DNA of 64,000 nt, taken from assembly GCA_030266845.1 (NCBI GenBank), contig JAJDIT010000006.1:1-64000 (forward strand), read 5' to 3'. This stretch comes from Acholeplasma sp. OttesenSCG-928-E16. Its GTDB lineage: Bacteria > Bacillota_I > Bacilli_A > Acholeplasmatales > Acholeplasmataceae. Of this stretch, positions 11,342-31,019 are shown in pieces (position 1 is the stretch's first letter; every line of letters starts with the position of its first letter). The notes below the pieces were generated by a model. It saw only the letters and a program-made list of their open reading frames with translations, had not been told where the DNA came from and searched no databases. The position numbers were made by a program, and so were the translations under genes.

Positions 11342-11418
11342 CGGGAAGTAGCTTAGCTTGGTAGAGCGCCTGGTTTGGGACCAGGAGGTCGCAGGTTCAA
11401 ATCCTGTCTTCCCGACCA
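11342..11418 (+). tRNA. tRNA-Pro (TGG)
   Basis: Acceptor CGGGAAG/CTTCCCG, discriminator A, encoded CCA. The anticodon stem CCTGG/CCAGG encloses ttTGGga, anticodon TGG. 77 nt. Confidence 0.97.
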
Positions 11419-11440
11419 GTTTTTAAACTTTATAATAAAT

Positions 11441-11514
11441 GCGGGTGTAGTTTAGTGGTAGAACCACAGCCTTCCAAGCTGTTGATGTGAGTTCGATTCT
11501 CATCACCCGCTCCA
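11441..11514 (+). tRNA. tRNA-Gly (TCC)
   Basis: Acceptor GCGGGTG/CACCCGC, discriminator T, encoded CCA. The anticodon stem ACAGC/GCTGT encloses ctTCCaa, anticodon TCC. 74 nt, 22 bases after tRNA-Pro in the same transcript. Confidence 0.97.
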
Positions 11515-11556: not shown

Positions 11557-11760
11557 AATGCCTAAATACCGATAATTAGCCCCATTTTAGCCGTTTTGTG
11601 GCTTTTTTACATTTGGTACGAGAGTTTGTTAGGGAAGAAATTACTGTGGCTTGTGTTTTCAAAATCAACGTTTTAGCAAAAGGTCTACATTTTAGCGATT
11701 GCTCAACGTTTTAGCGAAAGGTGAAAACTGCTTTAAAAAACAATTACTTCAAATTTGGTA
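11557..11760. other. Non-coding junction with short repeats before the defence operon
   Basis: No gene is visible. TTTTAGC occurs four times. A 20-bp direct repeat with one mismatch (TCAACGTTTTAGC, then A or G, then AAAGGT) is at 11665-11684 and 11703-11722. A weak hairpin AGCC/GGCT followed by TTTTTT is around 11589-11610. This is the border between the tRNA cluster and the restriction island. Confidence 0.6.
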
Positions 11761-11789
11761 TTGACATACTAAAAAAACAGTAGTATTAT
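11761..11789 (+). promoter_or_regulatory. Promoter of the restriction-modification operon
   Basis: Perfect -35 TTGACA (11761-11766), 17-bp spacer, -10 TATTAT (11784-11789). An overlapping TATAAT sits at 11787-11792. SD GGAGG and ATG 11819 follow. No further convincing promoter or terminator is visible before 23369, so this probably drives the whole six-gene operon. Confidence 0.75.
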
Positions 11790-11818
11790 AATTTTGTAGA
11801 GAATGGAGGTTCTAGGAA

Positions 11819-13384
11819 ATGATTATTCAAAAATTTTGGCAATTAGCAAATTTAGAAAGAGGATTGAATTCCAGTCACGAAGAAATGTTGTGGAATGTAT
11901 ATAGAATTCTTAAAATTAAAGAGGATTGTCCTGTTATAAAAATAAGTGATCCATATCAACTTTTGGATCTGATGAAGGAAATAGATGTAACTTTTTTTAG
12001 AGGAAATGAAAGATTGTTCTTTGAGGAATACTTAATTTTATCAGAAATGGATGCCAAAGAGGTGTTGGATTATGTTTATTTCATTCAAAAAAATAGTAAT
12101 GTTTTTGGTTCCTTAATACCGAAATCTTTATCTAAACTTCTTTTAATTTCAAAAAAAGTAGGAGCAGTTCTTGTTGCAGATGCTGATAAATATGATTCTG
12201 ATTTATATAATTATGTAATGGAAAACAGCGATACTCAGTTTTTCTTCACGGTAAAACAAGAAATTATGCACAATATATTATCTTTGTTATTCAAAGGACT
12301 TAATGTTCATTTTATTCTAAACGACATTTACGAGGAGAATTTCACAGATATAAAATTCGATTATATAATAGCGTTCCCTATAATGGGTGTAAGGAATCTT
12401 GAGACAGGAGGTGACTTTATTAGTAGAGAACCTAGCTTTATAGCAACGCAAAACCTGTTACTTCATTTATCGAGCATCGGTCAATTAAAGATAGTTTTAC
12501 CTGCAAAAATTGGTTTTGGGGGTGGAGATGCTGAAATCCTTAGGCATTTTATTAGCGATAATTATCAAGTTAATGAAATTGCGTCATTACCTTCTAGGCT
12601 ATTCTATCCATACATGTCAATAAATACATATTTAATTACAATTCAACAAGGGAAGACAGAAGATGTTAGTGTTATCAAATACAAACTAGAGAAAGATGCT
12701 TTATTTGAAGATGATAATAGATTAGTTTTTGCTGATGAACTAGAATCAATGAATAATTGGAATGTCGATATGGCGTTTTCACTAACCGACGAAACCATCA
12801 TGAATTATAAAAACTCTTTAGTTAAAAAAGCGCCCTTGAAGGATGTTGCTGATGTTTTTAGAGGTAAGTCAATTGCTGCGAAAACTGAGGAAGGAAATGT
12901 CTTAGTTATAAATATCTCAAATATTAGCGAAGTTGGAATTGACTATAATAATCTTGACTTTACCGTTGAAGAAGAGCGAAAAGTTCAAAGATATTTACTT
13001 GAACAAGATGATGTTTTGATAACAACAAAAGGTTTCAGTGTAAAAATTGGTGTTTATGAGGACCAGCAAAAAATGGTAATTGCCTCTTCCAACCTATGTG
13101 TTGTTAGACCAAATAAAAGATTGTTAACCGGAACCTACCTAAAGTTATTCCTAGAGTCTGAAACTGGTATGAAGCTTCTCAAAAGTCTGCAAAGAGGAAC
13201 TTCAATTGTAAACATAAATTATCAAGATATATGCGAACTAGAGGTGCCAATACCACCGTTGGAAGAACAATTAGAAATAACGAATGAATATGAAGCGGGT
13301 TTGAAACTTTATAAGGAAACGATTAATCAAGCAGAATACGCATGGTCAAAGATAAAAGCTAATGTGCAAAGAAAGTTATTTTAG
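11819..13384 (+). CDS. Degenerate N6-adenine methyltransferase fused to a type I specificity domain
   Basis: A 521-aa protein with two parts. Residues about 1-285 resemble the core of HsdM (VKQEIMHNILSLLF corresponds to GQE...A.MNL.L, and FDYIIAFPIMG to FDYIIANPPFG), but the AdoMet-binding DPACGTGG motif is absent and the catalytic NPPF is changed to FPIM, so it should be inactive. Residues about 290-521 are a single HsdS-like target recognition domain (ADVFRGKSI..., RGTSIVNINYQDICELEVPIPPLEEQ). It is the first gene after a strong promoter and lies 12 bases before the ADP-ribosylglycohydrolase-HsdM gene, whose SD overlaps its stop. I infer a DNA-sequence-sensing or regulatory subunit; it could also be an alternative specificity subunit. 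Confidence 0.75.
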   Translation: MIIQKFWQLANLERGLNSSHEEMLWNVYRILKIKEDCPVIKISDPYQLLDLMKEIDVTFFRGNERLFFEEYLILSEMDAKEVLDYVYFIQKNSNVFGSLIPKSLSKLLLISKKVGAVLVADADKYDSDLYNYVMENSDTQFFFTVKQEIMHNILSLLFKGLNVHFILNDIYEENFTDIKFDYIIAFPIMGVRNLETGGDFISREPSFIATQNLLLHLSSIGQLKIVLPAKIGFGGGDAEILRHFISDNYQVNEIASLPSRLFYPYMSINTYLITIQQGKTEDVSVIKYKLEKDALFEDDNRLVFADELESMNNWNVDMAFSLTDETIMNYKNSLVKKAPLKDVADVFRGKSIAAKTEEGNVLVINISNISEVGIDYNNLDFTVEEERKVQRYLLEQDDVLITTKGFSVKIGVYEDQQKMVIASSNLCVVRPNKRLLTGTYLKLFLESETGMKLLKSLQRGTSIVNINYQDICELEVPIPPLEEQLEITNEYEAGLKLYKETINQAEYAWSKIKANVQRKLF

Positions 13385-13395
13385 GAGGTTGCTAA

Positions 13396-15798
13396 ATGTT
13401 AGGAGCAATTATAGGAGATATTGTTGGGTCACGTTTTGAATGGAATAATAATAAATCGAAAGAGTTTGATTTATTAACGTATAGGAATTTCTTTACAGAT
13501 GATACAGTCATGACATTAGCTATTGCTAAAGCTATATTAGAAAGTAAAAATGATTACGAAAAACTAGGAGATTATGCGATTAAGCATATGCGAGAAATTG
13601 GCAAACTTTATCCTAATTGTGGATACGGCATAAACTTCGACAAATGGATTTTTTCTGATAATCCTCATCCATATAACAGCTATGGGAATGGTGCAGCTAT
13701 GCGAGTAAGTGCGTGCGGATTTGTAGCAAATTCATTAGAAGAAGCCATCGAACTTTCTCGCAAAGTGACAGAAATAACACATAATCATCACGAAGGAATC
13801 AAAGGGGCAGAAGCAACAACTGTAGCTATATATCTAGCAAGGACAGGAAGTAACATTTTTGAGATTAGAGATTATATAAATAATCATTACTATCCAATGA
13901 ATTTTAAACTTGATGATATTCGTGATTCTTATGAATTTAACGAAACTTGTCAAGATACTGTTCCACAAGCAATTGAAGCGTTTCTAGAATCAAAGAACTT
14001 TGAAGATGCTATACGAAATGCAATCTCAATTGGTGGAGATTCTGATACACTAGCAGCAATAACTGGTAGTATTGCAGAGGCTTACTATGGCATTCCTACT
14101 GATATTAGAAAACATGCATTAACTTATTTAGACGAGAGATTGTTATCTATCTTAGTAGAGTTTGAAAGTAAATATCCTTCACTGATGGAAAAAGGTGATG
14201 TAAAAATAAAAACAAAAAAGAAAAGAATATTGACGGGGGAACGTTCTGAAATGATGGAAGAAACAATTAATAAAATTGAAAAAGACTTTGATGATACTGA
14301 AATTGAAATAGAAGAAACATCAAGTCAAAAGTTATATAATCATTTATTTGAGGCATGCAATATACTTCGTGGCCCAATTAACCAAGATGAGTATAAATCA
14401 TATATCACACCTATTTTATTTTTTAAGAGAATTTCAGACGTATATGACGAAGAGACAGAAAAGGCACTTAATGAATCTGGTGGAGATAAAGAATATGCTT
14501 CATTTGACGAAAACCATAGCTTCAAGATTCCGGAAGGATGTCATTGGAATGATGTTCGTAATGCAAGTACGAATGTGGGAACTGTGATAGTTAATGCTAT
14601 GAGCGGAATAGAAAGATCTAATCCCGATACTTTGAGTGGTGTATTCAGCTCATTTGATGATGCAACTTGGACGGATAAAACAAAGCTTTCTGATGATAGA
14701 TTAAAAGATCTAATTGAACATATGTCATCAATTAAGGTTGGCAATAACAATTACACCGCTGATGTTATGGGTGATGCCTATGAATATTTAATTAAGAAGT
14801 TTGCGGATTTGTCCAAAAAGAACGCAGGTGAGTTCTATACTCCTCGTTCGATTGTAAAATTGTTAGTTAATCTTTTAGATCCTAAACCCGGGGATGAGGT
14901 ATATGATCCCGCGTGTGGTACAGGTGGTATGTTGATTGAAGCAATTCGCCATATCAATAACGATAAACTAACCTATGGACGTATTTATGGTCAAGAAAAG
15001 AATCTAGCAACCTCTGCAATTGCTCGAATGAATTTGTTTCTACATGGGGCAAAAGACTTTAAAGTATTGCAAGGTGATACACTTAGGGATCCAAAGTTTC
15101 TAAGAGCAGGTAAAGTCCAAAAATTTGATTGCACGATAGCTAATCCACCTTTTTCTCTAGATAAATGGGGTTCTGACCAATTTGCCACTGACGCATATGG
15201 AAGAAATATTTGGGGATGTCCTACTGATTCAAATGCAGACTTCGCTTGGCTGCAACATATGGTTTCCTCCATGAAGTCAAAAACTGGAAGATGTGTTGTC
15301 GTTCTTCCTCAAGGGGTTCTATTTAGAGGAGGTAAAGAAGCAGAAATGCGCAAACAACTTATTGAATCGGATATTCTTGAATGTGTAATCACGTTAGCAA
15401 GTGGAGTGTTTTATTCTACTGGGGTTTCCGCTTGCATCTTATTATTGAGTAATAATAAAGTTTCAGCTCATAAGGGCAAAATATGTATGATTAACGGTTC
15501 GAAATTTTATACGCCGAAGAGAGCTCAAGTATTAATGACGCAAACTGATATCGATAAGGTTTATAAGGTGTACCAGAACTATACAGATGAAATTGAAATT
15601 TCAAAAGTTATTACAATTGCCGAAGTAAAAGCAAATGGATATTCACTTGCTCTTAATAACTATATTGAAAAGAAAGAGGTAGAAACTGCAACACCAGTAG
15701 AAATTAGAAGACAATACTTAGATTCTTACAACAAAATGATTGAAGCAGAAGAAAAAATGAAACAATTATTGATAGAAGGAGGATACATCAATGAGTAA
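13396..15798 (+). CDS. ADP-ribosylglycohydrolase fused to type I methyltransferase subunit HsdM
   Basis: An 800-aa fusion. Residues 1-265 form a complete ADP-ribosylglycohydrolase (ARH/DraG family): GDIVGSRFEW (7-16), FTDDT (33-37), GNGAAMRV (97-104) and GGDSDTLAAI (213-222) contain the metal-binding acidic residues. After a charged linker, residues about 305-800 form an HsdM: N-terminal helical domain (NILRGPINQDEY, ITPILFFKRISDV), AdoMet motif DPACGTGG (504-511), catalytic NPPF (583-586) and a C-terminal coiled coil. HsdM makes N6-methyladenine and protects DNA from HsdR; the ARH domain removes ADP-ribose from protein or nucleic acid. The reading frame is continuous. Met286 (ATG 14251), preceded by a G-rich stretch, could start a free HsdM. 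It overlaps the second hsdM by 8 bp. Confidence 0.88.
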   Translation: MLGAIIGDIVGSRFEWNNNKSKEFDLLTYRNFFTDDTVMTLAIAKAILESKNDYEKLGDYAIKHMREIGKLYPNCGYGINFDKWIFSDNPHPYNSYGNGAAMRVSACGFVANSLEEAIELSRKVTEITHNHHEGIKGAEATTVAIYLARTGSNIFEIRDYINNHYYPMNFKLDDIRDSYEFNETCQDTVPQAIEAFLESKNFEDAIRNAISIGGDSDTLAAITGSIAEAYYGIPTDIRKHALTYLDERLLSILVEFESKYPSLMEKGDVKIKTKKKRILTGERSEMMEETINKIEKDFDDTEIEIEETSSQKLYNHLFEACNILRGPINQDEYKSYITPILFFKRISDVYDEETEKALNESGGDKEYASFDENHSFKIPEGCHWNDVRNASTNVGTVIVNAMSGIERSNPDTLSGVFSSFDDATWTDKTKLSDDRLKDLIEHMSSIKVGNNNYTADVMGDAYEYLIKKFADLSKKNAGEFYTPRSIVKLLVNLLDPKPGDEVYDPACGTGGMLIEAIRHINNDKLTYGRIYGQEKNLATSAIARMNLFLHGAKDFKVLQGDTLRDPKFLRAGKVQKFDCTIANPPFSLDKWGSDQFATDAYGRNIWGCPTDSNADFAWLQHMVSSMKSKTGRCVVVLPQGVLFRGGKEAEMRKQLIESDILECVITLASGVFYSTGVSACILLLSNNKVSAHKGKICMINGSKFYTPKRAQVLMTQTDIDKVYKVYQNYTDEIEISKVITIAEVKANGYSLALNNYIEKKEVETATPVEIRRQYLDSYNKMIEAEEKMKQLLIEGGYINE

Positions 15799-17281
15799 AA
15801 GAATACCTCTTGAAGAGCTGGAATCCTATTTATGGGGATCTGCAACACTACTAAGAACAAATATCGATGCTGGTGCATACAAGCAATATATCTTTCCACT
15901 TCTATTTTTCAAAAGAATTTGTGATGTCTACGATGAGGAAACAACTCTTGCTTTCGAAAAATATGGTGATGATGCACGTGAATTTTCAGATGATGAATTG
16001 CATTTATTTGTGGTTCCAAAAGGATACCATTGGAATGATGTGAGAGAAACGACAACTGATGTTGGCTTGTCAATTATTACAGCATTTAGAAAAATTGAAA
16101 AAGCGAATGGTAACAAATTAACTGGTGTATTTGGCGATGCAGCATGGACAAATAAGAATAGACTTCCAGATAAACTTCTTAAAGACATCATTGAGCATTT
16201 CAGTACAAAAACATTATCACTTGCAAACTGCCCTGAAGATGAGCTTGGGCAGGGGTATGAGTACCTTATTAAAAAGTTTGCTGATGATAGTGGCCATACA
16301 GCACAGGAATTTTATACTAATAGAACAGTAGTACACTTAATGACCGAAATGCTGAAACCTAGAAGCGGGGAATCAATATATGACCCGACATGCGGTAGTG
16401 CAGGTATGCTTATTTCTGCTATTGCATATCTAAAAAACAAAGGAGCCGAATGGCGTAATGTATCTACTTACGGTCAGGAAATCAATTCTTTAACAGCTGC
16501 TATTGCAAAGATGAATTTATTCTTACATGGAGTAAAGGATTTTCACATTGTTAATGATGATACATTAAAGTCTCCTGCTTATATTGAAAAAGGACAATTA
16601 ATGCAATTTGATATGTGTCTTGCAAATCCACCATACTCAATTTCTCAATGGGATAGGGAATCCTTCGAAAGTGATAAATATGGGCGTAACTTCTTGGGTG
16701 TTCCACCACAAGGAAGAGCAGACTATGCGTTTATTCAACACATTTTGAAGAGCTTAAAACCAAATACAGGGAGATGTGCGATTTTATTACCTCATGGTGT
16801 TTTATTCAGAAACGAAGAAGGTGCAATGAGAGAGGCTTTAGTTAAGAGCGACTTACTAGAATGTGTTATTGGATTGGGCCCTAATCTTTTTTATAACGCT
16901 CCTATGGAAGCTTGTATATTAGTGTGCAGAACAAACAAGAAACCCGATAGAAGAGGGAAAGTGTTGTTTATCAATGCATTGAATGAAATCGCACGCAAAA
17001 AAACATTTAGTTATCTAAAAAAAGGTCACATTGAAAAGATTACTCAAGCATATGATTCCTACTTTGATAGTAAAAATTTTGCGAAAGTTGTAACAATTAA
17101 AGATATCTCTAATAATGGTTTTTCATTAAGCCTTCCCTTATATGTAAAAAATAATGAAACTGAAATAATTGATTCTAGAAAACTGGATGATTGCTTGGCA
17201 ACTTGGAAAGAAGCATCTGATAATCTACATAGATCATTAGGTAATATAAATGAAATGATTCGAAAAGGAGATAAACTATGA
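15791..17281 (+). CDS. hsdM: Type I restriction-modification methyltransferase subunit, second HsdM
   Basis: A 496-aa HsdM of normal length. The N-terminal HsdM domain (NIDAGAYKQYIFPLLFFKRI) is followed by the Rossmann methyltransferase with AdoMet motif DPTCGSAGM (198-206), a relaxed form of DPACGTGG, and catalytic NPPY (279-282). The C-terminal helical tail probably packs with HsdS. It is clearly homologous to the neighbouring HsdM but far from identical (NPPY against NPPF, different motif I), so the two are diverged paralogues. It overlaps the upstream gene by 8 bp and hsdS by 4 bp (ATGA). Two different HsdM subunits in one operon would allow an asymmetric M1-M2-S enzyme. Confidence 0.92.
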   Translation: MSKRIPLEELESYLWGSATLLRTNIDAGAYKQYIFPLLFFKRICDVYDEETTLAFEKYGDDAREFSDDELHLFVVPKGYHWNDVRETTTDVGLSIITAFRKIEKANGNKLTGVFGDAAWTNKNRLPDKLLKDIIEHFSTKTLSLANCPEDELGQGYEYLIKKFADDSGHTAQEFYTNRTVVHLMTEMLKPRSGESIYDPTCGSAGMLISAIAYLKNKGAEWRNVSTYGQEINSLTAAIAKMNLFLHGVKDFHIVNDDTLKSPAYIEKGQLMQFDMCLANPPYSISQWDRESFESDKYGRNFLGVPPQGRADYAFIQHILKSLKPNTGRCAILLPHGVLFRNEEGAMREALVKSDLLECVIGLGPNLFYNAPMEACILVCRTNKKPDRRGKVLFINALNEIARKKTFSYLKKGHIEKITQAYDSYFDSKNFAKVVTIKDISNNGFSLSLPLYVKNNETEIIDSRKLDDCLATWKEASDNLHRSLGNINEMIRKGDKL

Positions 17282-18402
17282 GTAAGTATACTTTTGATGA
17301 AATAGCAATAAACTGTACTGAAAAGAAAAAACCTGTAGAAAATGATAAATACACATATTTAGGTCTTGAACACTTGGATTCTGAAACATTAAAAGTTTCC
17401 AGATTTGGTTCTGAAGTTGCTCCAATTGGTGAAAAGTTATTAATGAAAAAGGGAGATATTTTATTTGGCAAAAGACGTGCTTATCAAAAGAAGGTTGCAA
17501 TAGCTCCTTTTGATGGGATTTTTTCTGCTCATGGTATGGTTTTAAGACCTAAAGTAGAAGTTATTGATCCTGATTTCTTCCCATTTTTTATAAGTTCGGA
17601 TTACTTTCTTGATACCGCGATAAAAATATCTGTTGGGTCTTTATCGCCGACAATAAATTGGAAGGACCTAAATAAATTAGAGTTTTCATTACCTTCAATA
17701 GAAGCGCAAAAAGAAAATGCCAAGTTGCTATGGGCAATACAGAAAACACTAGAGGCGTATAAAGATTTAATTTCGAAGCAGAACATGCTTGTCAAAAGTG
17801 AAATAAGAGAAATATTAAAAGAAAAAAAATCTTTTACGGAATTAAGGAACTATTGTGATTTGTCTATTGAAACAGCAAAAAAAAGTTTTAAGGACGATGA
17901 TGATATTTTGTATGTTGAGATTTCCTCTATCGATAATGAAATTAATGAAATAGTTAATCCAACTCAATTGTTACTTAAAGATGCACCTGAAAGTGCTAAA
18001 CAAGTTTTGAAGAAAGGTGATGTACTTGTATCATTGGTCAGACCTAATTTAAAGAAAATAGCAGTTAATAAATACCCATATAATAACGTTATAGGAACAA
18101 GTGGCTTTTGTATTTTAAGACCTAACGAGAAAACAACGTCATCTTTTATTCAAGCAATAGTATTGTCTGATGATTTCACTTCAAAGATGGAATCGTCAGT
18201 TATAGGCAGCACTTATCCAACAATAAAAGAAACCAATGTTTTAAGTTATAAAGTGCCTATAATTTCTTCAGAGGAAATGAGGAAAATAACTAATTTGATA
18301 GATGCTGGTGACACTATTAAAATACTACTTTTAGAGTGTATTTCAGAACTGAAGGCTTCTTACAAAAAAATTATGAGAGATAAAATTTTCAAGGAGGATT
18401 AA
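17278..18402 (+). CDS. hsdS: Type I restriction-modification specificity subunit HsdS
   Basis: A 374-aa HsdS with two target recognition domains. The first spans about 1-165 (KKGDILFGKRRAYQKKVAIA, then SVGSLSPTINWKDLNKLEFSLP) and the second about 185-370 (LKKGDVLVSLVRPNLKKIAV, then IGSTYPTIKETNVLSYKVP). Each is followed by a helical conserved region that acts as a molecular ruler and docks HsdM. HsdS decides the bipartite DNA target. Its start overlaps the HsdM stop (ATGA), and hsdR follows after 3 bases. Confidence 0.92.
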   Translation: MSKYTFDEIAINCTEKKKPVENDKYTYLGLEHLDSETLKVSRFGSEVAPIGEKLLMKKGDILFGKRRAYQKKVAIAPFDGIFSAHGMVLRPKVEVIDPDFFPFFISSDYFLDTAIKISVGSLSPTINWKDLNKLEFSLPSIEAQKENAKLLWAIQKTLEAYKDLISKQNMLVKSEIREILKEKKSFTELRNYCDLSIETAKKSFKDDDDILYVEISSIDNEINEIVNPTQLLLKDAPESAKQVLKKGDVLVSLVRPNLKKIAVNKYPYNNVIGTSGFCILRPNEKTTSSFIQAIVLSDDFTSKMESSVIGSTYPTIKETNVLSYKVPIISSEEMRKITNLIDAGDTIKILLLECISELKASYKKIMRDKIFKED

Positions 18403-18405: not shown

Positions 18406-21321
18406 ATGTCATTATTTAATGAAGACAATACAATTGAACAATTGGTTATTACTACTCTAAAGCACAATGGTTGGACGTATATTGATAAAGACCATCTGAA
18501 ACGAGAATTAAGTGATGTAATGGTTGAATCAATGGTAAAAGCTGCTTTGATCAGACTAAACCCTGAAATTGCAGAAGAACCATCTAGAGCAGATGAAGTG
18601 ATATACAAATTTAGAACCCTAATTAATTCAGTTCAATCTCACAATTTAGTAACTCAAAATGAAGTTTTTAAGAAGTGGATATTTGATGAGAATTCATATC
18701 CATTTGGAAAAGATGGACGAATGGTATCAATAAAGTTTTTCGGAACAATGACGAGAGAAGAATTGGCTAAAAATGAATATGTTGTAACTAATCAATGGTC
18801 ATACCCTTGTGAAGAGGGAGGAAAACGCCTCGATATAGTTCTACTAGTTAATGGATTTCCTGTTGCTATTGGTGAGTTAAAAACGCCAGTTCGCGCTGCC
18901 ATCTCATGGGTTGATGGAGCATCTGATATTCTTAATTACGAGAAGAGCATTCCTCAGATGTTTGTTACAAATGTATTTAACTTTGCTACTGAAGGCAAAT
19001 GTTTTAGATATGGTTCAATTAATTCTCCAATAGGACAATGGGGACCATGGCATACTTCTGAACACAAAGTTGAAGGTGGGTTAGTAGATGTAAAAATTTC
19101 TTTAGAAGACATGATTACTCCAGAAAAAATTATGGATATTTTTCAGTTTTTCACTATTTTTGCTACAGATAAAAAATATAGAAAGTGTAAAATTATCTGT
19201 CGATATCAACAATATGAAGGAGCGAACGCAATTGTTCAAAGGGTAATTGCTGGTTATCCTAAAAAAGGGCTAATTTGGCATTTCCAAGGTTCAGGGAAGT
19301 CTTTATTGATGGTATTTGCAGCACAAAAATTAAGAATGATACCCGAGTTAAAAAATCCAACAGTAGTGATAGTTGATGATCGTATTGATTTAGAAACTCA
19401 GATAACTGCCACTTTTAATGCATCTGATATTCCGAACATGGCATCTGCAGGTTCAAAAGAAGAACTAATATCATTTTTTAAGGGAGATATGCGTAAAATT
19501 CTCATTACTACCATATTCAAATTTGGAGAAGTCAATGGTGTCTTGAACCCAAGAGATAATATCATTTTGATGGTTGATGAAGCACATAGAACACAAGAAG
19601 GAAATCTTGGTGAAAAAATGAGGACTGCATTACCAAATGCATTCTTCTTTGGTTTAACTGGTACACCAATCAATCGTATAGATAGAAATACATTTAATAC
19701 GTTTGGAGCAGAAGAAGATCGAAGTGGTTACTTGAGCAAATATTCATTTTCAGACTCTATTCGAGACAAAGCTACTCTACCTTTGAATTTTGAGCCAGTG
19801 CCGGTAGATTTACATGTTGACCAAGAAACACTTGACAGAGAATTTGACATATTAACTGAAGGATTAACAGAAGATCAAAAAGCTCAACTATCAACAAGAG
19901 TAAATATGCAAGCTATTTTCTATAATCCATTACGAATTAAAAAAGTGTGTGAGCATATTGTTAAACACTATCAAGACAAAGTGGAACCAAATGGATATAA
20001 AGCTCAAATAGTTTGCTATGACAGAGAATGCTGTATTCGATATAAAGAAGAATTAGATAAGTTATTACCTGAAGAGGCGTCTACAGTAGTGATAGATACC
20101 AACAATGATAAAGAAGACAGATTCAAGAAATTCAGAAGAGAAAGAGATGAGGAAGGAAAGGTGTTAGATCATTTTAGAGATCCACATGATCCTCTTAAAT
20201 TTGTTATTGTAACCGCTAAATTATTAACTGGATTTGATGCTCCAATTCTTCAAGTAATGTATCTAGACAAACCAATGAAAGACCACACATTATTACAAGC
20301 TATTTGCCGTACTAATCGTACCTATGACGAAGGAAAAACTTTTGGTTTAATTGTAGATTATACTGGCATATTTGATAATGTTGCAAGGGCATTGGATTTT
20401 GATGAAAGTTCAATGAAAAAGATTATTACAAATATTCAAGAGGTTAAGAAACAATTGCCGGCACTATTAAAGAAGTGTTTAAGTTACTTCATGGGTGTCG
20501 ATAGAACAGTAACCGGTTGGGAAGGTTTGATGGCAGCTCAAGAATGTTTACCTACTAATAAAGAAAAAGACTTGTTCGGGGCAGATTACCGCGTATTAAA
20601 TAAGGCGTGGAATTCACTTTCTCCGGATTCATTCTTAACAGCGTATAGTTTGGATTATCAATGGTTATCCAAGGTTTATGAATCTGTAAAACCTGTTGAT
20701 GGCACAGGAAAACTAATATGGAGCACATTGGGACCTAAAACTATAGAATTAGTCCATAGAAATGTTACTGTTGGAACTGTACATGATGAAGAAGATGTTT
20801 TATCACTGGATGCTGATATGATCGATAAGTTCATTAACAAAACTGGCGGTTCAGAGAGGGCAACAAAAAAGATAGAAATCAATTTAGTTGCAAAAATCCT
20901 TGAACATAATAGTAATCCAAGATTTGTGAAATTAGGTGAAAAACTAGAGGAACTACGTGCCAAACATGAGCAAGGTCTGTTAACAAGTATGGAATTTTTA
21001 AAAATGCTCTTAGAACTTGCCAAAGAGGCTGCACAAGCAGAAAAAGAAATAGTTCCTGAAGAGGAATTGGACAAGGGGAAGGCGGCATTAACAGAGTTGT
21101 TTAACGGAGTAAAAAATAGAGCCACACCAATAATTGTTGAACGTATAGTTAAAGATATAGATGATATTGTTAGAGTTGTTAGATTTGACGGGTGGCAAAA
21201 TACTACTGCAGGGAAACAAGAGGTGAAGAAAGCACTAAGAAGTGTTGTTTGGATAAAATATAAAATTAAAGATATAGAAGTCTTTGATAAAGCCTATAAA
21301 TACATCGAACAATACTATTAA
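18406..21321 (+). CDS. hsdR: Type I restriction endonuclease subunit HsdR
   Basis: A 971-aa motor and nuclease subunit. The N-terminal PD-(D/E)xK nuclease is visible as RLDIVLLVNG...GELK (Asp143, Glu157, Lys159). The SF2 helicase follows with Walker A GSGKS (295-299), DEAH (391-394), motif III LTGTP, and motif VI-type QAICRTNR. A helical C-terminal domain for HsdM contact completes it. It translocates DNA using ATP and cuts away from unmethylated sites. All key residues are present, so it should be active. SD AGGAGG precedes ATG 18406. Confidence 0.94.
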   Translation: MSLFNEDNTIEQLVITTLKHNGWTYIDKDHLKRELSDVMVESMVKAALIRLNPEIAEEPSRADEVIYKFRTLINSVQSHNLVTQNEVFKKWIFDENSYPFGKDGRMVSIKFFGTMTREELAKNEYVVTNQWSYPCEEGGKRLDIVLLVNGFPVAIGELKTPVRAAISWVDGASDILNYEKSIPQMFVTNVFNFATEGKCFRYGSINSPIGQWGPWHTSEHKVEGGLVDVKISLEDMITPEKIMDIFQFFTIFATDKKYRKCKIICRYQQYEGANAIVQRVIAGYPKKGLIWHFQGSGKSLLMVFAAQKLRMIPELKNPTVVIVDDRIDLETQITATFNASDIPNMASAGSKEELISFFKGDMRKILITTIFKFGEVNGVLNPRDNIILMVDEAHRTQEGNLGEKMRTALPNAFFFGLTGTPINRIDRNTFNTFGAEEDRSGYLSKYSFSDSIRDKATLPLNFEPVPVDLHVDQETLDREFDILTEGLTEDQKAQLSTRVNMQAIFYNPLRIKKVCEHIVKHYQDKVEPNGYKAQIVCYDRECCIRYKEELDKLLPEEASTVVIDTNNDKEDRFKKFRRERDEEGKVLDHFRDPHDPLKFVIVTAKLLTGFDAPILQVMYLDKPMKDHTLLQAICRTNRTYDEGKTFGLIVDYTGIFDNVARALDFDESSMKKIITNIQEVKKQLPALLKKCLSYFMGVDRTVTGWEGLMAAQECLPTNKEKDLFGADYRVLNKAWNSLSPDSFLTAYSLDYQWLSKVYESVKPVDGTGKLIWSTLGPKTIELVHRNVTVGTVHDEEDVLSLDADMIDKFINKTGGSERATKKIEINLVAKILEHNSNPRFVKLGEKLEELRAKHEQGLLTSMEFLKMLLELAKEAAQAEKEIVPEEELDKGKAALTELFNGVKNRATPIIVERIVKDIDDIVRVVRFDGWQNTTAGKQEVKKALRSVVWIKYKIKDIEVFDKAYKYIEQYY

Positions 21322-21341
21322 TGGTATGGGGAGGATTTCCA

Positions 21342-23312
21342 TTGAATATAAAGTATTATAATTTTGAGGAATATCTAAAAGAAAAACATTTGGACATCTT
21401 TAAGAATTGGTTTATGACTAATATCACACATAATGTAGAAAACTGGAAGTTAACTACTGACGAAGTATATGATCCTACTACATATAATCTAAAAGAAGAT
21501 ATTACTATTTCTGAGGCTAAATACTATTTTGGAATTGGTAGTACTCTTTCTTTTGATATATATGTATCCTTTTCGGTTTCCATGATTCAGGAGTTTTCAG
21601 ATCTAGATTATAGCAAACAATTTACTACTAGCAGAACTTTTACTTTTTCTTTAGAATGCGAATTAGAAAATGGTGTACAGAACTTGAGAATTATTAATGT
21701 GAGAAGAGGTAGATTTGAAAGAGACTCTTTGGCTAGAACTACAGAAGTTAGACTTAGTGATGAGTTGGTTCCAATTATGACTTCTGAACAGGTTGATTAT
21801 TTTGCGGAGATATTTTTAATGGAATACTATCCTGATGCGCTATTTGACGAAGTCTCAGTTCCAGTTGTAGATATAATAAAAAATTCTATGAGATTAGAGT
21901 TTTATGACTCGAAATTAAAAACGAATATACATGGTGCTACATTCTTTGAAGTAACTAAAGGAAAAATATATAATGGTGATAACGAATTGATTGACAAAAC
22001 TATCAATGAGGGAACAATAATTATAAATCGTGATGTTATAGAAAATATAGGAATGTATAACAATACCGCTATTCACGAAGCTATTCATTGGTTTTTACAT
22101 AGAAAGTATTTCGAAATGAAAAAACTTTTAGCTCCAGATGATATGAAGTTGGTTTTATCCTGTAATATCAATGAAATAGACATGCCTATAAATAATTCGA
22201 GTAAAAATGCAAAGAAATGGATGGAATGGCAAGCTAATAGAATTGCTCCTCATATTTTAATGCCAACAAAAACTGCATACAACGTAATACAAAATATCTA
22301 TGATACGATTCGAGAGGAATATCCGGAATGTAGAGATGCTTCTATAATGGAAAAAACGATAGAAGCAGTTTCTGATTTTTATGGAGTTTCTTATTCGGTC
22401 GCAAAAATTAGAGCAGTTGAGTTAGGTTTTGAACAAGCAAGAGGAGTGTATAATTATGTTGATTCGATAAGAATTAAACCATACTCCTTTCCTCAGGGAA
22501 GTTTAAAAGCAAATGAGACTTATCAAATTTCTTTTAGTTCATTTCTAAATTTACTGTCGGGTAATGTCGAATTAGCTAAGTTGTATATTGAAAATAAAAT
22601 AATCTATTGTGATGGATTTGTTGTCAAAAATAGTGAGCAGGTGAGACCATTTCTCCAAGGAAACTGTCTTGATGAAACGATTCTTAATGATGTGAGTAAA
22701 CATTGTTTTAAGTTCATTTCAAAAAGAAGTGTGAATACACCTGCTGATTGGATAAATTGCCTAAATTTTTTGTGTCGAACTCAAGGGTGCAATTTGGAAG
22801 AGAATATATGTGATTTATCCGATCCAAAAAATCAAGATATTTATGAAACAGCATTAGCAGAAATCAGTAGTGATGAAGAAGGAATATTAAAAAGTGAAAA
22901 ACTATCTAAAGATTATGCAGAGTTTTCTTCTACTTTACCTGCATCATTTGGTGGAACATTAAAAGCACATATGGATAGAAGAGGTTATACAGAAGAAAAA
23001 CTCGAGGAGCAGTCATGGGTAAGCGTAAGAAGCATTAGTACTTATATTAATGACCCTAACGCATGTCCTGAAATAGAGACTGTCCTTGCTTTATGTATTG
23101 GACTTAATCTTACATTAATGTTTTCTCTAGATTTAATAAAAAAAGCCGAAAGAAATACAAGTAATTTACTAAGAAGCGTGAACTATATTCATATGGAATT
23201 ATTAACCCATTACGATGATAAAAATATAGTGTATTGGAATTTGCGTTTGGGAAAAACAAAAATGAAACTCATACCAAGTAATGCTGTTGCAAAGAAAAAT
23301 ATGGATTTTTAA
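21342..23312 (+). CDS. Large ImmA/IrrE-like HExxH peptidase with C-terminal HTH
   Basis: About 656 aa. A zincin core lies near residues 230-310: HEAIH (about 245-249) supplies the two His and Glu, and EWQANRIAPHILMP supplies the third ligand Glu (about 295), as in ImmA/IrrE (COG2856) peptidases. The first 220 residues are a beta-rich domain I do not recognise. A C-terminal XRE-like helix-turn-helix lies near 560-620 (GTLKAHMDRRGYTEEKLEEQSWVSVRSISTYI). The in-frame ATG at 21321 overlaps the hsdR stop but has no SD, whereas TTG 21342 follows GGGGAGG by 7 bases, so TTG is chosen. ImmA-type peptidases cleave repressors; here it may regulate, or be activated by, the restriction operon it ends. Confidence 0.75.
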   Translation: MNIKYYNFEEYLKEKHLDIFKNWFMTNITHNVENWKLTTDEVYDPTTYNLKEDITISEAKYYFGIGSTLSFDIYVSFSVSMIQEFSDLDYSKQFTTSRTFTFSLECELENGVQNLRIINVRRGRFERDSLARTTEVRLSDELVPIMTSEQVDYFAEIFLMEYYPDALFDEVSVPVVDIIKNSMRLEFYDSKLKTNIHGATFFEVTKGKIYNGDNELIDKTINEGTIIINRDVIENIGMYNNTAIHEAIHWFLHRKYFEMKKLLAPDDMKLVLSCNINEIDMPINNSSKNAKKWMEWQANRIAPHILMPTKTAYNVIQNIYDTIREEYPECRDASIMEKTIEAVSDFYGVSYSVAKIRAVELGFEQARGVYNYVDSIRIKPYSFPQGSLKANETYQISFSSFLNLLSGNVELAKLYIENKIIYCDGFVVKNSEQVRPFLQGNCLDETILNDVSKHCFKFISKRSVNTPADWINCLNFLCRTQGCNLEENICDLSDPKNQDIYETALAEISSDEEGILKSEKLSKDYAEFSSTLPASFGGTLKAHMDRRGYTEEKLEEQSWVSVRSISTYINDPNACPEIETVLALCIGLNLTLMFSLDLIKKAERNTSNLLRSVNYIHMELLTHYDDKNIVYWNLRLGKTKMKLIPSNAVAKKNMDF

Positions 23313-23585: not shown

Positions 23586-23746
23586 TTCCTAAATTCATTA
23601 AGTAGTAAATTTATTTAGTCGGCTCTTTAGGAAGGGGCGGATTCAAAAATCGAAATGGAGTAATCCAATAATTCGAGGTTTTGATTTCCGTTTTTTCTTC
23701 ATGCCTTGAAATTGATACCTCCATTTCAGAAATCAACTGATGGAGG
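23586..23746 (+). promoter_or_regulatory. Structured leader (possible attenuator) before the first prophage gene
   Basis: The pairing arms TTCCTAAA (23586-) and TTTAGGAA are followed by a long imperfect hairpin 23638-23690 (CGGA/TCCG, TCAAAA/TTTTGA, TCGAA/TTCGA) and TTTTTT, which looks like an intrinsic terminator. Downstream, CCTCCAT (23718-23724) can pair either with ATGGAGG (23740-23746), hiding the SD of the next gene, or with AAATGGAG (23653-23660) inside the terminator hairpin. This gives mutually exclusive structures. There is no gene between 23313 and 23754. Confidence 0.55.
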
Positions 23747-23754
23747 AAAATCAA

Positions 23755-24381
23755 ATGAAAGATTTCAAATTAAAGGAGCAATATTCTACAAGAATGGAAG
23801 CTGAAGAAGCACTAGCTCAGTACAACGAAGGAAAGTCTGAAGAAGACAAAATGTATTATTGGTCATATTTAAGTGCAATCGAAAATAGGTGGATGTATTG
23901 CATCGTCACAAAAAAACAATGGTATGCACTTAAAGCAATGGAAAGAGATGAATCGGATCGAATAGATGAAGAATCTCGATGTGTTATTCCGTCAGAAAGA
24001 TATGGATTAAAGAAGTGCAGAGAAAACTGTGATGAGTGTCCATATGGAAAAACAAAAAGAGAAGGTAATCCTCTTTCATATGACAAGGCACTTGAAGATG
24101 GTCTAATCCCTGATGGTAGAGGTGGTATGAAGTTATTTACTGAACAAGTAGACCCATCATCAGATTTTGTAGACGATCAATTAAAAGATGAGTTGACTGA
24201 AATACTTAATGATCTACTAGATGAATTAGATCCAAAAGATAGAAAAATCATTGAACTATTTAGTGAAGATTATTCTGATTCTGAAATTGCTAAAAAAACA
24301 AATAGTAAGAAGAGTACTATTCAATACCGCAGAAAGAAGATTATTACTGAGCTCAAAATAAAAATTGAGGAATATTTATGA
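23755..24381 (+). CDS. Sigma-70 region 4-like phage regulator
   Basis: A 208-aa protein. The C-terminal 60 residues look like a sigma region 4/HTH (ELDPKDRKIIELFSEDYSDSEIAKKTNSKKSTIQYRRKKIITEL). The N-terminal part has a small cysteine cluster (CVIPSERYGLKKC, then CDECPYG) that might bind zinc. Proteins of this type begin many Bacillota prophage early regions and are thought to direct transcription. An in-frame ATG at 23740 overlaps the SD GGAGG, so ATG 23755 is chosen. The SD can be sequestered by the upstream CCTCCAT. Its exact promoter target is unknown. Confidence 0.7.
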   Translation: MKDFKLKEQYSTRMEAEEALAQYNEGKSEEDKMYYWSYLSAIENRWMYCIVTKKQWYALKAMERDESDRIDEESRCVIPSERYGLKKCRENCDECPYGKTKREGNPLSYDKALEDGLIPDGRGGMKLFTEQVDPSSDFVDDQLKDELTEILNDLLDELDPKDRKIIELFSEDYSDSEIAKKTNSKKSTIQYRRKKIITELKIKIEEYL

Positions 24382-24386
24382 TTTAT

Positions 24387-24422
24387 TTGGTCGTTTCGAC
24401 TTCACTTCCGCATAGAACTATG
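24387..24422 (+). repeat. 36-bp direct repeat, left copy
   Basis: Starts TTGGTCGTTT and ends CGCATAGAACTATG. It matches 60234-60269 at 30 of 36 positions. Both copies lie shortly before a small gene with a strong SD. They could be a shared leader element or remnants of recombination ends. Confidence 0.65.
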
Positions 24423-24461
24423 GACAGAAGAGAACTGTTCTAGAAAACGGAGGTGTATCAA

Positions 24462-24653
24462 ATGGATACAAAAGCAAAAGCAGCCAGTGATAAACCTTTC
24501 TTAACCGATACTGAGTTATTTGACACTCTAATGACTATTAGTTTGGTTACGAAAGCACTAGCAAAGAAAGTATTGTTACTCCCAGCGGGAAGTAAGACAA
24601 CAGGAGGTAAACGAGATGGAACAAAGAAAACACTCGATCCTCGCACCAAGTAG
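24462..24653 (+). CDS. Small conserved phage protein, unknown function
   Basis: A 63-aa basic protein beginning MDTKAKAASDKPFLTDTE, with a hydrophobic helix LFDTLMTISLVTKALAKKV and a Lys/Arg-rich tail. Small proteins with this pattern commonly sit just before DUF2800 genes in Bacillota prophages. An upstream GTG in frame is part of the SD GGAGGTG, so ATG 24462 is used. Its end overlaps the DUF2800 start by 38 bp. A perfect palindrome AGAACTGTTCT (24431-24441) lies just upstream. I cannot assign a function. Confidence 0.65.
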   Translation: MDTKAKAASDKPFLTDTELFDTLMTISLVTKALAKKVLLLPAGSKTTGGKRDGTKKTLDPRTK

Positions 24654-25491
24654 TAAGGAATGGCCGCATTGCGGTTATGCCACTAGATTCCTTGCTACTA
24701 AAAAGGAAGAAACAAATGATGCTGCAGAGTTTGGCTCAGAATGTCATTTGCTTTCAGAGATGTACATTCGTAAAAGTTTGAAACTTGAAGATTACGAATC
24801 AGATGACAAAAGGTCCATAGAAGAAGTGAAGTCAGGATTTAAGCACTATTCAGAGGAAATGGAAACACTAGCCAATGGATATGCAAACTATGTCATTAGT
24901 ACTTACGATTATGAAGCAAAAAGAACAGGGACAAAACCGATAATCTTAATCGAACAATTACTTGACATGGACTATGCACCAGACACTCATGGAACTTTGG
25001 ATTGTGGAATTATTGCAGGTGACACTTTAACTATTATCGATAACAAAACGGGCTATGTGAAAGTAACAGCTTATAGTGAGGAACTAAAAGAATTAAATAG
25101 TCAGCTTGGAATCTATGGTTACTACGCCTATAAATGTTTCAAAGACTTATATCCAATAAAGAAAATAAGGTTTGTTATCTACCAAGAAAGAATTCACAAC
25201 ATTTCTGAATACACAATTACATCAGAGGAACTTGAAAAGTGGCATCAAGATTTCTTATTACCAGCAGCAAAAGTCGCCTTGAGTGATAATCCAGAAGCAA
25301 AGACAGGTTCTTGGTGTCGCTATTGTCCAGGAAGAAATGTTTGTCGCAAAAGAGCAGAAGAAAATATTTCAACCGCTAGTAAGTTAAAGAAGCCAGAAAT
25401 AATGACTGAAGCTGAAATTGAAGAGTTATTACCAAAGCTAGATAGTCTAGTCTCTTATATCGATGACATTAAATCCTATTGCTTAAAATGA
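24616..25491 (+). CDS. DUF2800 family phage protein, interrupted by in-frame TGA
   Basis: A 291-aa product up to the TGA at 25489. DUF2800 proteins are phage replication-associated and resemble Cas4/RecB-type nucleases. Visible here are the acidic and Lys residues GTLDCGIIAGDTLTIIDNKTG (Asp/Asp-x-Lys type active site), a helical QLGIYGYYAY segment, and cysteines SWCRYCPGRNVCRKRA that would form the iron-sulphur or Zn cluster with an upstream Cys. The family normally continues for about another 100 residues, and that continuation is present in the same frame after the TGA (see the next feature). SD GGAGG supports ATG 24616. The nuclease core itself is intact. Confidence 0.8.
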   Translation: MEQRKHSILAPSSKEWPHCGYATRFLATKKEETNDAAEFGSECHLLSEMYIRKSLKLEDYESDDKRSIEEVKSGFKHYSEEMETLANGYANYVISTYDYEAKRTGTKPIILIEQLLDMDYAPDTHGTLDCGIIAGDTLTIIDNKTGYVKVTAYSEELKELNSQLGIYGYYAYKCFKDLYPIKKIRFVIYQERIHNISEYTITSEELEKWHQDFLLPAAKVALSDNPEAKTGSWCRYCPGRNVCRKRAEENISTASKLKKPEIMTEAEIEELLPKLDSLVSYIDDIKSYCLK

Positions 25492-25785
25492 GCTATTGAA
25501 AATGGAAAAGTCTGGAAAGGCTATAAACTCGTTGAGGCGGTAACAAGGAAAAGAATAAGTGATGAAGATAAAGTTGCACAGATTTTAACTAATGCCGGAT
25601 TTGATCCTTACACAAAGAAACTAAAATCTATCACTGAACTTCAAAAACTAGTAGGTAAAACATTTAGTGACCTTATTGGTGAATATGTTATCAAACCAAA
25701 AGGTAAAGAAGAATTAGCACCAATTAGTGATGCTAGAGAAGAAATAACTATTGAAGCAAATAAGGAGGATAAGAAAGATGCTTAA
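25492..25785 (+). pseudogene. Severed C-terminal part of the DUF2800 gene
   Basis: Read in the same frame as the upstream DUF2800 gene, these 97 codons continue the family (AIENGKVWKGYKLVEA, KKLKSITELQKLVGKTF, IKPKGKEELAPISDAREE) and end at TAA 25785. Only the TGA at 25489-25491 separates the halves, with no frameshift. The site lies between LK and AIENG where relatives usually carry a coding residue such as Gln, Lys or Glu. This could be a recent nonsense mutation, readthrough or a sequencing error. The tail overlaps the next gene's start (ATG 25778). Confidence 0.75.
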
Positions 25786-26743
25786 TATTATTACCGGTGT
25801 TGAGAAAACGCCACTTAAAATTTGTATTTATGGAGCAGAAGGAGTAGGAAAATCAAGCCTTGCTTCTAATATGCCAAATCCACTATTCATAGACATTGAA
25901 GGTGGAACAAGTAGATTAAATGTCAGACGTATTAAATGCGGTGAGTCATGGGAAGAGTTACTAAATATTGTAAAAGAAGTAATCAAAAATCCAAGCGTAT
26001 GTCAAACGCTAGTTATTGATACCGCTGACTGGGCTGAGTCACTTTGTAGAGATTATATTTGTGCCAAACATAGAAAGGCAAATATAGAGGACTTTGGCTT
26101 CGGGAAGGGATATACGTATCTTTATGAGGAGTTTGGCGAGTTCTTGAAATTACTTAACCAATTAATCGAAGTAGGTATTAACCCTGTTGTGATTGCTCAT
26201 GGTAAACCTAGAAAATATGAGCTTCCTGAAGAACAAGGACAATTTGATAGATGGGAAATGAAACTATCTAAACAAGTCGCTCCTTTAATCAAAGAATGGT
26301 GTGATATGTTACTTTTCTGTAACTATAAAACATTCGTAGTAACAACTGAAAATAATAAGAATAAAGCGCGTGGTGGTAAGCGAGTTATTTATACCACACA
26401 TAACCCTTGTTGGGATGCTAAGAATCGCTTTAATTTACCTGATGAAATTGACCTTAATTATGCAGCAATCGCCCATCTATTTGAAGATAAACAAGAGATA
26501 AAAACGGAAGCTAAAAAGAGCGATGAAACTGATAATATCCTAGCAAAACTTGAACATTTAGTTGCTGAATCAGGTATAGACATTACCGAATTACAAAAAG
26601 TTGTCAGTGATAAAGGACACTATGAATTAGATGTTCCAATAACAGAATACTCAGAAGATTTTATCACTCGTTGGATAATTCCTAATTGGAAGAAAATCAT
26701 TGAAATTATTAACAAAAATAAAGGAGAAAATAACAATGAATAA
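25778..26743 (+). CDS. Phage AAA ATPase (RecA-like nucleotide-binding protein)
   Basis: A 321-aa P-loop ATPase with Walker A YGAEGVGKSSLA (about 19-30) and a Walker B-type strand TLVIDTADW. This is the AAA_24-like nucleotide-binding protein commonly placed between DUF2800 and DUF669 genes in Bacillota phages, probably a recombination or replication accessory ATPase acting with the ssDNA-binding protein downstream. The track start TTG 25751 overlaps the SD AAGGAGG; ATG 25778 is the proper start. It overlaps the end of the DUF2800 reading frame by 8 bp and the next gene by 8 bp. Confidence 0.82.
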   Translation: MLNIITGVEKTPLKICIYGAEGVGKSSLASNMPNPLFIDIEGGTSRLNVRRIKCGESWEELLNIVKEVIKNPSVCQTLVIDTADWAESLCRDYICAKHRKANIEDFGFGKGYTYLYEEFGEFLKLLNQLIEVGINPVVIAHGKPRKYELPEEQGQFDRWEMKLSKQVAPLIKEWCDMLLFCNYKTFVVTTENNKNKARGGKRVIYTTHNPCWDAKNRFNLPDEIDLNYAAIAHLFEDKQEIKTEAKKSDETDNILAKLEHLVAESGIDITELQKVVSDKGHYELDVPITEYSEDFITRWIIPNWKKIIEIINKNKGENNNE

Positions 26744-27188
26744 TAATGAAAATATGTTCCTTGATTGGAACGACAGTATTGAAACCGATGGACAAGAGTT
26801 CGTATTGCTTGATGAAGGTGATTACAATTTTACAGTCACTAATTTTGAAAGAGGAAGATTCCCAGGTGGAGCAAAGATTCCAGCATGTAATAAAGCAACT
26901 ATAACAGTTAAGGTTGATTCAGAAAAAGGAACAGCTAATGTTAAGTTCGATTTGCTTTTATATAGAAGCGTTGAGTGGAAAATATCTGCATTCTTTAGAA
27001 GTATCGGTCAAAAGAAGTCTGGTGAAAAACTAGTCATGGATTGGAATAAAGTTGTTGGTTCTCAAGGAAGAGCACATTTCAAACAAAAAGTTTATACCAA
27101 TAGCACTGGGGAAGAAAAGACTGCAAATGACCTAGAACACTTTATTGATTACAACGAAGAATTCTTTGACGATGGTCTCCCTTTCTAG
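26736..27188 (+). CDS. DUF669 family protein, probable ssDNA-binding protein
   Basis: A 150-aa DUF669 protein. It has the beta-rich family pattern (LLDEGDYNFTVTNFERGRFPGG, ATITVKVD, VKFDLLLYRSVEWKISAFFRSIG) and a very acidic C-terminus ending DDGLPF. That tail closely resembles the DDDIPF tip by which bacterial SSB recruits repair proteins. DUF669 genes sit where phages carry their recombination/ssDNA-binding genes. ATG 26736 is chosen over the upstream TTG because SD AAGGAG lies before it. I infer ssDNA binding and partner recruitment in phage replication. Confidence 0.78.
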   Translation: MNNNENMFLDWNDSIETDGQEFVLLDEGDYNFTVTNFERGRFPGGAKIPACNKATITVKVDSEKGTANVKFDLLLYRSVEWKISAFFRSIGQKKSGEKLVMDWNKVVGSQGRAHFKQKVYTNSTGEEKTANDLEHFIDYNEEFFDDGLPF

Positions 27189-27197
27189 AGGTTTACT

Positions 27198-28778
27198 ATG
27201 ATGGAATTAAGACCATATCAATTAGAAGCAATAAAAGCTATTCAGTATGAGTGGAATATTGGTCATGATAAAACTCTTTTAGTTCTTCCAACCGGAACAG
27301 GTAAAACAGTAGTATTTGTAAAGATAGTTGAACTTGAAACGAAAGATGGCGGTAAAGCACTTATTCTTGCTCATAGAGGAGAATTATTAGACCAAGCTGC
27401 TGCTAAGCTCAAAATGGTATCTGGATTGGATTCGGCTTTGGAAAAAGCTGAGTCCTCCTCAGTTGGTTCTGACTTACCAGTAACTGTTGCTTCTGTTCAA
27501 ACGCTATCTCAAGAGAAAAGACTGCTACAGTTTCCGCGTGATTATTTTAAGCTAATAGTAGTAGACGAAGTGCATCATTCTACAAGCAGTACTTATCAAC
27601 GAATATTACAACACTTTAATACCGCTCTTGTTCTTGGTGTAACTGCAACTCCAGATAGAGCTGATCAAAAAAATCTAGGACAATTCTTCGATTCAAAAGC
27701 ATATGAATACACAATGGCAAAAGCAGTTAAAGAAGGATATTTATGTCCTATCAAAGCACAAATGATACCACTTGAATTAGATATTCATAATGTGAGTATG
27801 TCAAATGGTGATTATGCAGTAGGTGAAGTTGGTTCTGCTTTAGAGCCATACTTAAATCAAATAGCACTAGAAATGGTTAATTATTGTAAAGATAGAAAAA
27901 CTGTAGTGTTCCTTCCGCTAGTTAAAACTTCTCAAAAATTCTGTGAGTTATTAAACGTACACGGACTTAGAGCAGCAGAGGTAAACGGGAACTCAACAGA
28001 TAGAGAGAAGATATTAAAAGATTTTGAAAATGGAGAGTATCAAGTTTTATGCAATTCAATGTTACTTACTGAAGGTTGGGATTGTCCTACTGTTGATTGC
28101 ATCGTCATTTTAAGACCTACAAAGGTTAGAAGCCTATATCAACAAATGGTAGGTAGAGGAATGAGGCTTGCTCCAAATAAAGATGATTTACTTTTACTTG
28201 ATTTCCTGTGGCTAACTGAAAGACATGATTTATGTAAGCCATCATCTCTTGTTTCAAAAGATGAAGAAGTGGCTAAGCGAATAAATAAGATGATTCAAGA
28301 TAAAGAATCAGGAGTTGACTTAATGGATGCAGAAGAAGTCGCATGTAAAGATATCATCCAAGAAAGAGAAGACTCACTTGCTAGAGAACTTGAAGCAATG
28401 CGCAAAAAGAAAAGACAGCTTGTGGATCCTATTCAATACGCATTTTCCATTGAAGCAGAAGACTTGGCAGATTATGAGCCAACATTTGGATGGGAATGTG
28501 GTCCTGCAACTGAAAGACAACTAGATTACTTAGAAAAGCATGGAATTTATGCAGAATCAATCACGAATGCCGGAATGGCAAGTTTAATAATTGAAAAATT
28601 AAAGAATAGACAAAATGAAGGTTTATCAACACCAAAACAAATCAGGTTCTTAGAACGATATGGTTTTCTCCATGTAGGTATGTGGGCGTTTGAGGCAGCT
28701 TCTAAAATGATTACAAGAATTTCAAACAATAATTGGTTTCTGCCACGTGAGATAGACGCTGCAAGTTACCAACCTTAG
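27198..28778 (+). CDS. Phage SF2 DEAD/DEAH-box helicase
   Basis: A 526-aa superfamily 2 helicase. It has the Q-like RPYQLEAIKAI, Walker A LPTGTGKTVV (about 31-40), DEVHH (the DEAH-box position), motif III GVTATPDR and motif VI QMVGRGMR. A C-terminal extension (about 400-526) contains repeats of the type found in phage helicases (ATERQLDYLEKHGI, TPKQIRFLERYGF). It would unwind DNA or branched intermediates during phage replication. The SD GAGG supports ATG 27198; a second ATG follows immediately. It is the fourth gene of the replication block. Confidence 0.88.
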   Translation: MMELRPYQLEAIKAIQYEWNIGHDKTLLVLPTGTGKTVVFVKIVELETKDGGKALILAHRGELLDQAAAKLKMVSGLDSALEKAESSSVGSDLPVTVASVQTLSQEKRLLQFPRDYFKLIVVDEVHHSTSSTYQRILQHFNTALVLGVTATPDRADQKNLGQFFDSKAYEYTMAKAVKEGYLCPIKAQMIPLELDIHNVSMSNGDYAVGEVGSALEPYLNQIALEMVNYCKDRKTVVFLPLVKTSQKFCELLNVHGLRAAEVNGNSTDREKILKDFENGEYQVLCNSMLLTEGWDCPTVDCIVILRPTKVRSLYQQMVGRGMRLAPNKDDLLLLDFLWLTERHDLCKPSSLVSKDEEVAKRINKMIQDKESGVDLMDAEEVACKDIIQEREDSLARELEAMRKKKRQLVDPIQYAFSIEAEDLADYEPTFGWECGPATERQLDYLEKHGIYAESITNAGMASLIIEKLKNRQNEGLSTPKQIRFLERYGFLHVGMWAFEAASKMITRISNNNWFLPREIDAASYQP

Positions 28779-28787
28779 GAGGTAGCA

Positions 28788-30976: not shown

Positions 30977-31019
30977 TAACTGCCTTTCTTCAAAAAAAAT
31001 AAAAAGGGAGATTCGTAAA

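Follow-up and report, generated by a model that had tools for sequence, protein, structure and literature searches.

Little is known about how transcription of type I restriction systems is controlled. Some type II methyltransferases repress their own genes (e.g. M.EcoRII and M.SsoII); these are active C5 enzymes, some of which carry an added HTH. Dedicated regulators of restriction-modification (RM) operons are already known as well (C proteins, HsdC and RptR), and those that we found are small. HsdC of Mollicutes, described as a C-protein homologue, is encoded in a type I hsd operon, apparently acts as a repressor and binds the direct repeats (GTGTTAN5)2 (PMC5282649). RptR, whose gene opens a type I RM island, is a repressor of its own promoter, which carries a conserved binding site; the protein is a 9-kDa helical homodimer that occupies the 6-bp palindrome TAGCTA (PMC12255303). 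Finally, a single target recognition domain (TRD) can read a symmetric site: EcoR124INT, an engineered half-S subunit of EcoR124I, does so as a dimer on GAAN7TTC (PMC3320862).

We analyzed a 64,000-nucleotide stretch of Acholeplasma sp. OttesenSCG-928-E16 (the window), in which a type I RM operon begins with a gene for a methyltransferase-like protein carrying one TRD. Judging from sequence comparison and structural modeling, this pseudo-methyltransferase is likely to be a dedicated transcriptional autoregulator of its own operon, derived from a fusion of HsdM with a half-HsdS. As a dedicated RM-operon regulator it would resemble the C proteins and HsdC, which bind repeats in their own promoters, but C proteins are small HTH proteins, whereas this one has 521 aa, combines a methyltransferase fold with a TRD and matches no HTH. 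Like RptR it is the product of a first gene, yet the two are unrelated in size, fold and site. M.EcoRII and M.SsoII are methyltransferase-type autorepressors with catalytic activity; the pseudo-methyltransferase, by contrast, has lost its catalysis and would act through its TRD. The geometry that we propose has its precedent in EcoR124INT, which, unlike the pseudo-methyltransferase, is an engineered protein that brings in active HsdM to methylate and HsdR to cleave (PMC3320862). In the literature that we searched, mostly papers available without subscription, we found no description of a regulator built from a dead type I methyltransferase and a TRD.

The operon and its first gene

Behind the pseudo-methyltransferase gene come genes for an ADP-ribosylglycohydrolase-HsdM fusion, a second HsdM, HsdS, HsdR and an M78-HTH protein (Table 1). 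The whole run is on the + strand, and its genes are tightly spaced or overlap. Both HsdMs keep their catalytic motifs (DPACGTGG/NPPF and DPTCGSAG/NPPY). This pair of distinct, intact HsdMs is kept across the class (a) loci of our collection, and the two may form a heterodimer on HsdS. The ADP-ribosylglycohydrolase fusion is seen again in many class (a) loci (L078, L079, L083, L094, L099, L100, L106, L114 and L120) and is missing from the group formed by L093, L095, L113, L115 and L117, where HsdM1 has 501 aa; no paper on such fusions was found in the literature searched. The M78-HTH protein weakly matches CapP and RmrA (PADLOC), and L061 and L062 contain related genes; it may serve as an additional regulator that responds to damage.

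Table 1. Features of the operon and its promoter, in window coordinates.
Feature	Position	Strand	Details
Predicted operator TTTGGTATTGACATACTAAA (GGTA-N6-TACT)	11754..11773	.	Inverted repeat straddling the -35 box; 16/16 to family consensus
Promoter-like site	11761..11789	+	-35 TTGACA 11761-11766, 17-bp spacer, -10 TATTAT 11784-11789; consensus match only
GGAGG before the pseudo-methyltransferase ORF	11805-11809		
Pseudo-methyltransferase with one TRD, proposed autoregulator	11819..13384	+	521 aa; ATG at 11819, stop ends at 13384
Former motif I, VADADKYDS	12173..12199	+	Residues 119-127; family-wide replacement [IL][IT]xEAEK
Former motif IV, FPIM where NPPF is expected	12374..12385	+	Residues 186-189
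Single TRD	12821..13279	+	Residues 335-487; Methylase_S 6.9e-14 (Pfam)
C-terminal helix, candidate dimerization helix as in half-HsdS	13259..13378	+	Residues 481-520; AlphaFold2 model
ADP-ribosylglycohydrolase fused to intact HsdM, proposed regulated gene	13396..15798	+	800 aa; PF03747, 5.9e-35
Second intact HsdM, proposed regulated gene	15791..17281	+	496 aa
HsdS with two TRD stretches, proposed regulated gene	17278..18402	+	
HsdR, proposed regulated gene	18406..21321	+	
M78 (ImmA/IrrE-like) peptidase with HTH	21321..23312	+	Final gene of the run; found in few related loci only

The sequence-only reading had described the first gene product as methyltransferase-like in its N-terminal part, lacking motif I and carrying FPIM in place of NPPF, with an intact TRD behind it, and Pfam, the motifs and a structural model all agree with this description. 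Both the SAM-binding motif I (DPxxGxGG) and the NPP(F/Y) of active type I HsdMs are absent. In Pfam, the N6_Mtase match is weak (27.8 bits) and confined to residues 206-303, and neither HsdM_N nor any HTH was matched in the 521 residues. The AlphaFold2 model, built from an alignment of 46 sequences (mean pLDDT 89.4), consists of a methyltransferase-like core of alternating strands and helices, one TRD and a 40-residue C-terminal helix. The protein modeled on its own thus has the methyltransferase fold whose absence would have told against the earlier description, and Foldseek aligned it with the full methyltransferases CamA and M.TaqI (TM about 0.5-0.6). The TRD matched Esub1 (TM 0.93 on the target, 1.8 Å), the closest TRD of solved structure (PDB 8vsq, 8vsr; the solved chain is the TRD part only), which is also similar in sequence (phmmer E 5e-36; about 36% identity); our literature searches found no papers on Esub1. 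Both the single Methylase_S stretch and the model give a TRD count of one, at odds with the two-TRD layout of HsdS. A search of the Acholeplasma genome found no further copy of the pseudo-methyltransferase, the sole other match being HsdS.

Conservation of the family

About 75 related loci were collected from plasmid matches, from a scan of species genomes and by searching related genomes with HMMs; the taxon assignment of MAG-based loci may be wrong, which leaves the sequence argument unaffected. In most of them the pseudo-methyltransferase gene precedes intact hsd genes, and two arrangements occur: the genes behind it are either [ADPRGH-]HsdM1-HsdM2-S-R or one HsdM with S and R. All 46 close homologues in the alignment have lost the Asn of NPPF, with Leu, Phe, Val or Ile as the usual substitutes, and a new conserved motif, [IL][IT]xEAEK, stands at the position of motif I. 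The FPIM change is thus common to close homologues, as the earlier reading had asked: the nearest have FPIM or FPVM, and most of the remaining sequences a hydrophobic-P-x-F/M. In more remote copies, from plasmids and genomes, the loss is partial (VPPF, HPPL, DYPF), and the Asn is still kept in L022, L175 and L176. Close pairs have dN/dS of 0.06-0.14, and one more distant pair 0.18. Because the same motif losses occur throughout the close homologues under purifying selection, simple decay is excluded, and the fear that the window's copy had merely decayed was not borne out.

The TRD is also conserved in a way that differs from HsdS. Median identity across loci is 54% for the TRD vs. 37% for the dead domain, compared with 36% for HsdS in the same loci and about 70% for HsdM, so that the TRD lacks the hypervariability typical of HsdS recognition domains. 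In four near-identical loci the pseudo-methyltransferases are 97-98% identical, while identity between the HsdS proteins falls to 39-66%. The pseudo-methyltransferase stays constant while HsdS is swapped; therefore, its TRD has a fixed target that is independent of the specificity of the operon.

Pseudo-methyltransferase-TRD genes also occur alone, with no hsd neighbors (L064, L071, L074 and L076), next to genes for leucine-rich-repeat proteins, ferritin, EngA/S1 or alanyl-tRNA synthetase; most of them have a palindrome of their own. In distant subfamilies (L058, L063, L066, L068, L070, L072 and L073), a gene of about 171-181 aa lies between the pseudo-methyltransferase and HsdM or HsdR, and those tested gave no significant Pfam match. 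A pilot search of the taxonomic order with the N-terminal part returned weak matches, mostly to HsdM-length ORFs. Searches of viral contigs, made with the window protein alone, and of phage records gave no match.

The promoter palindrome and its probable reader

Upstream regions of these genes share one inverted repeat, found in promoters of widely separated genomes. Its family form, TTTRGTAT-N4-ATACYAAA, amounts to RGTA-N6-TACY and has the bipartite geometry of type I sites. Scored against the consensus TTTRGTATNNNNATACYAAA (out of 16), the operator reached at least 14 in 44 of 51 genes and 16 in 24, compared with means of 0.1 and 0 in dinucleotide shuffles. Sites scoring at least 14 were found 43 times upstream of pseudo-methyltransferase genes vs. 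twice elsewhere in the same loci (622 kb), and one of these two is probably the operator of L102 itself, because the annotated start lies 245 bp downstream of it. In the 1.13-Mb Acholeplasma assembly, the window site is the sole match with 0 mismatches, the other four places having 2 mismatches; in 13 further genomes, perfect sites occur at the pseudo-methyltransferase promoter only. Members collected after the motif had been fixed scored 16/16 (L169, L170, L177 and L178) or 15/16 (L179), or carried AGTA-N7-TACT (L167); one of these later members, L180, had none. The operator is present in L181 and L183 too, which look like near-copies of L099 and L106, and no recognizable operator was seen in L020, L022, L059, L067, L176 or L180. 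The N7 spacing is shared by L018, L130 and L167; a helix insertion in the protein was considered as its cause, and none of the three has a matching insertion.

In distant subfamilies, most of which keep the N6 spacing, this position is taken by other palindromes, namely GGTT-N6-AACC, GGAT-N6-ATCC and (A/C)GTT-N6-AACT, frequently present twice, once on each side of the core promoter; these were assigned by eye, and the presence of each was confirmed by script. Half-site similarity correlated with TRD identity (rho 0.74, permutation p 0.0005) and nearly as well with identity of the dead domain (rho 0.68), which linkage between the two domains would lead one to expect; the covariation is thus evidence for reading by the TRD but no proof. 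Among 74 loci, only M, S and R genes recur in most and no other regulator gene does; a conserved HTH gene was sought as an alternative binder, and there was none. Taken together, the sequence comparisons indicate that the pseudo-methyltransferase most likely binds the short palindrome in its own promoter. Because tested defining features of HsdM, HsdS and C proteins fail, we class the protein as a probable RM autoregulator; a conserved and specific site lies in its own promoter.

Proposed autoregulation and rival explanations

The earlier proposal of an autoregulatory role is strongly supported by a promoter palindrome that is conserved, unique in the genome and variable with the TRD. In the mechanism that we envisage, two copies of the pseudo-methyltransferase would dimerize as half-S subunits do, each TRD of the homodimer would read one RGTA half-site, and the dimer would clamp the DNA around the -35 hexamer, shutting out RNA polymerase. 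Because the regulator gene comes first, the resulting negative feedback would act on the entire hsd operon, with HsdM, HsdS and HsdR controlled together.

The palindrome might instead be read by another regulator, such as the M78-HTH protein or a host factor, leaving the pseudo-methyltransferase with a structural or accessory part in the restriction complex. The M78-HTH gene does end the window's operon, and TTTGGTAT-N4-ATACCAAA is of ordinary size for an HTH operator; we nonetheless find this explanation improbable, as the M78-HTH gene was detected in few loci, the half-site follows the class of the TRD, and the site is also found at stand-alone pseudo-methyltransferase genes with no hsd neighbors (e.g. 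L074 and L076). The direction of control is a related question. The pseudo-methyltransferase is probably a repressor: in the window, repression is likelier than activation because the -35 hexamer TTGACA is itself the spacer of the predicted operator, an arrangement found in many other loci, and several distant members have two operator copies around the core promoter. An activator or, as with some type II C proteins, a protein that activates when scarce and represses when abundant therefore seems unlikely for the family, although activation is possible in one subgroup because its operator sits about 8-14 bp upstream of the -35; in L098, L099, L100, L106 and L108 it ends about 13 bp upstream.

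Two further explanations give the protein a place in methylation or no function of its own. With a retained methyltransferase fold, adenine in the half-sites and active-looking HsdMs next door, the pseudo-methyltransferase could be pictured as an alternative methylation subunit that joins an active HsdM to target RGTA-N6-TACY. This sequence is, however, nearly absent from the genome outside the pseudo-methyltransferase promoter, which rejects it as a general methylation motif, and the protein already has a methyltransferase body of its own fused to the TRD, so we hold this role to be very improbable. The loss of catalytic motifs would also fit a gene in decay, or a protein that competes with HsdS by blocking methylation sites, but shared losses among close homologues under low dN/dS, independence from HsdS alleles and the lack of a genome-wide site make either hardly credible. 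The competitor role suggested from the sequence alone thus fares poorly, with a near-constant protein beside diverging HsdS and a predicted site confined to one promoter.

Returning to the autoregulator, we can offer a tentative and rather doubtful idea of how it might respond to infection. The repressor could double as a decoy sensor: phage DNA mimics (such as Ocr or Ard) and phage proteins that bind TRDs, by which type I enzymes are disabled, could also pull the repressor off its operator and so induce restriction during infection, and the same doubtful idea would explain why the dead methyltransferase body has been kept. Hints in this direction are that the whole fold is retained, that the top Foldseek match is a methyltransferase in complex with Ocr, and that the Esub1 structure is of a complex with a protein called Prx.

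If autoregulation is correct, Bacillota would have a widespread family of regulators made from the methyltransferase and recognition parts of the very system that they control, and type I restriction operons could be controlled without an HTH. With half-sites assigned by TRD class, the family would offer a ready-made operator code, and TRD specificity could be read from operators instead of methylomes. Many genes annotated as 'N-6 DNA methylase' ahead of hsd operons would probably be non-enzymes, which would call for caution when counting methyltransferases.

The surroundings of the operon contain several other features. Genes for tRNA-Pro and tRNA-Gly (11342-11514) lie directly upstream, and tRNA genes are apparently also upstream in L072 and L073, which suggests insertion next to tRNA genes. 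Two direct repeats of AACGTTTTAGC[AG]AAAGG, 38 bp apart (11667-11721), occur nowhere else in the assembly and are possibly an insertion-sequence end. After the operon, phage-like genes extend over 23740-34882 (sigma-70 region 4, DUF2800, AAA_24, helicase, PriCT-2 primase and ParB-N/N6_N4 methylase), and among them is a gene for S-adenosylmethionine synthetase.
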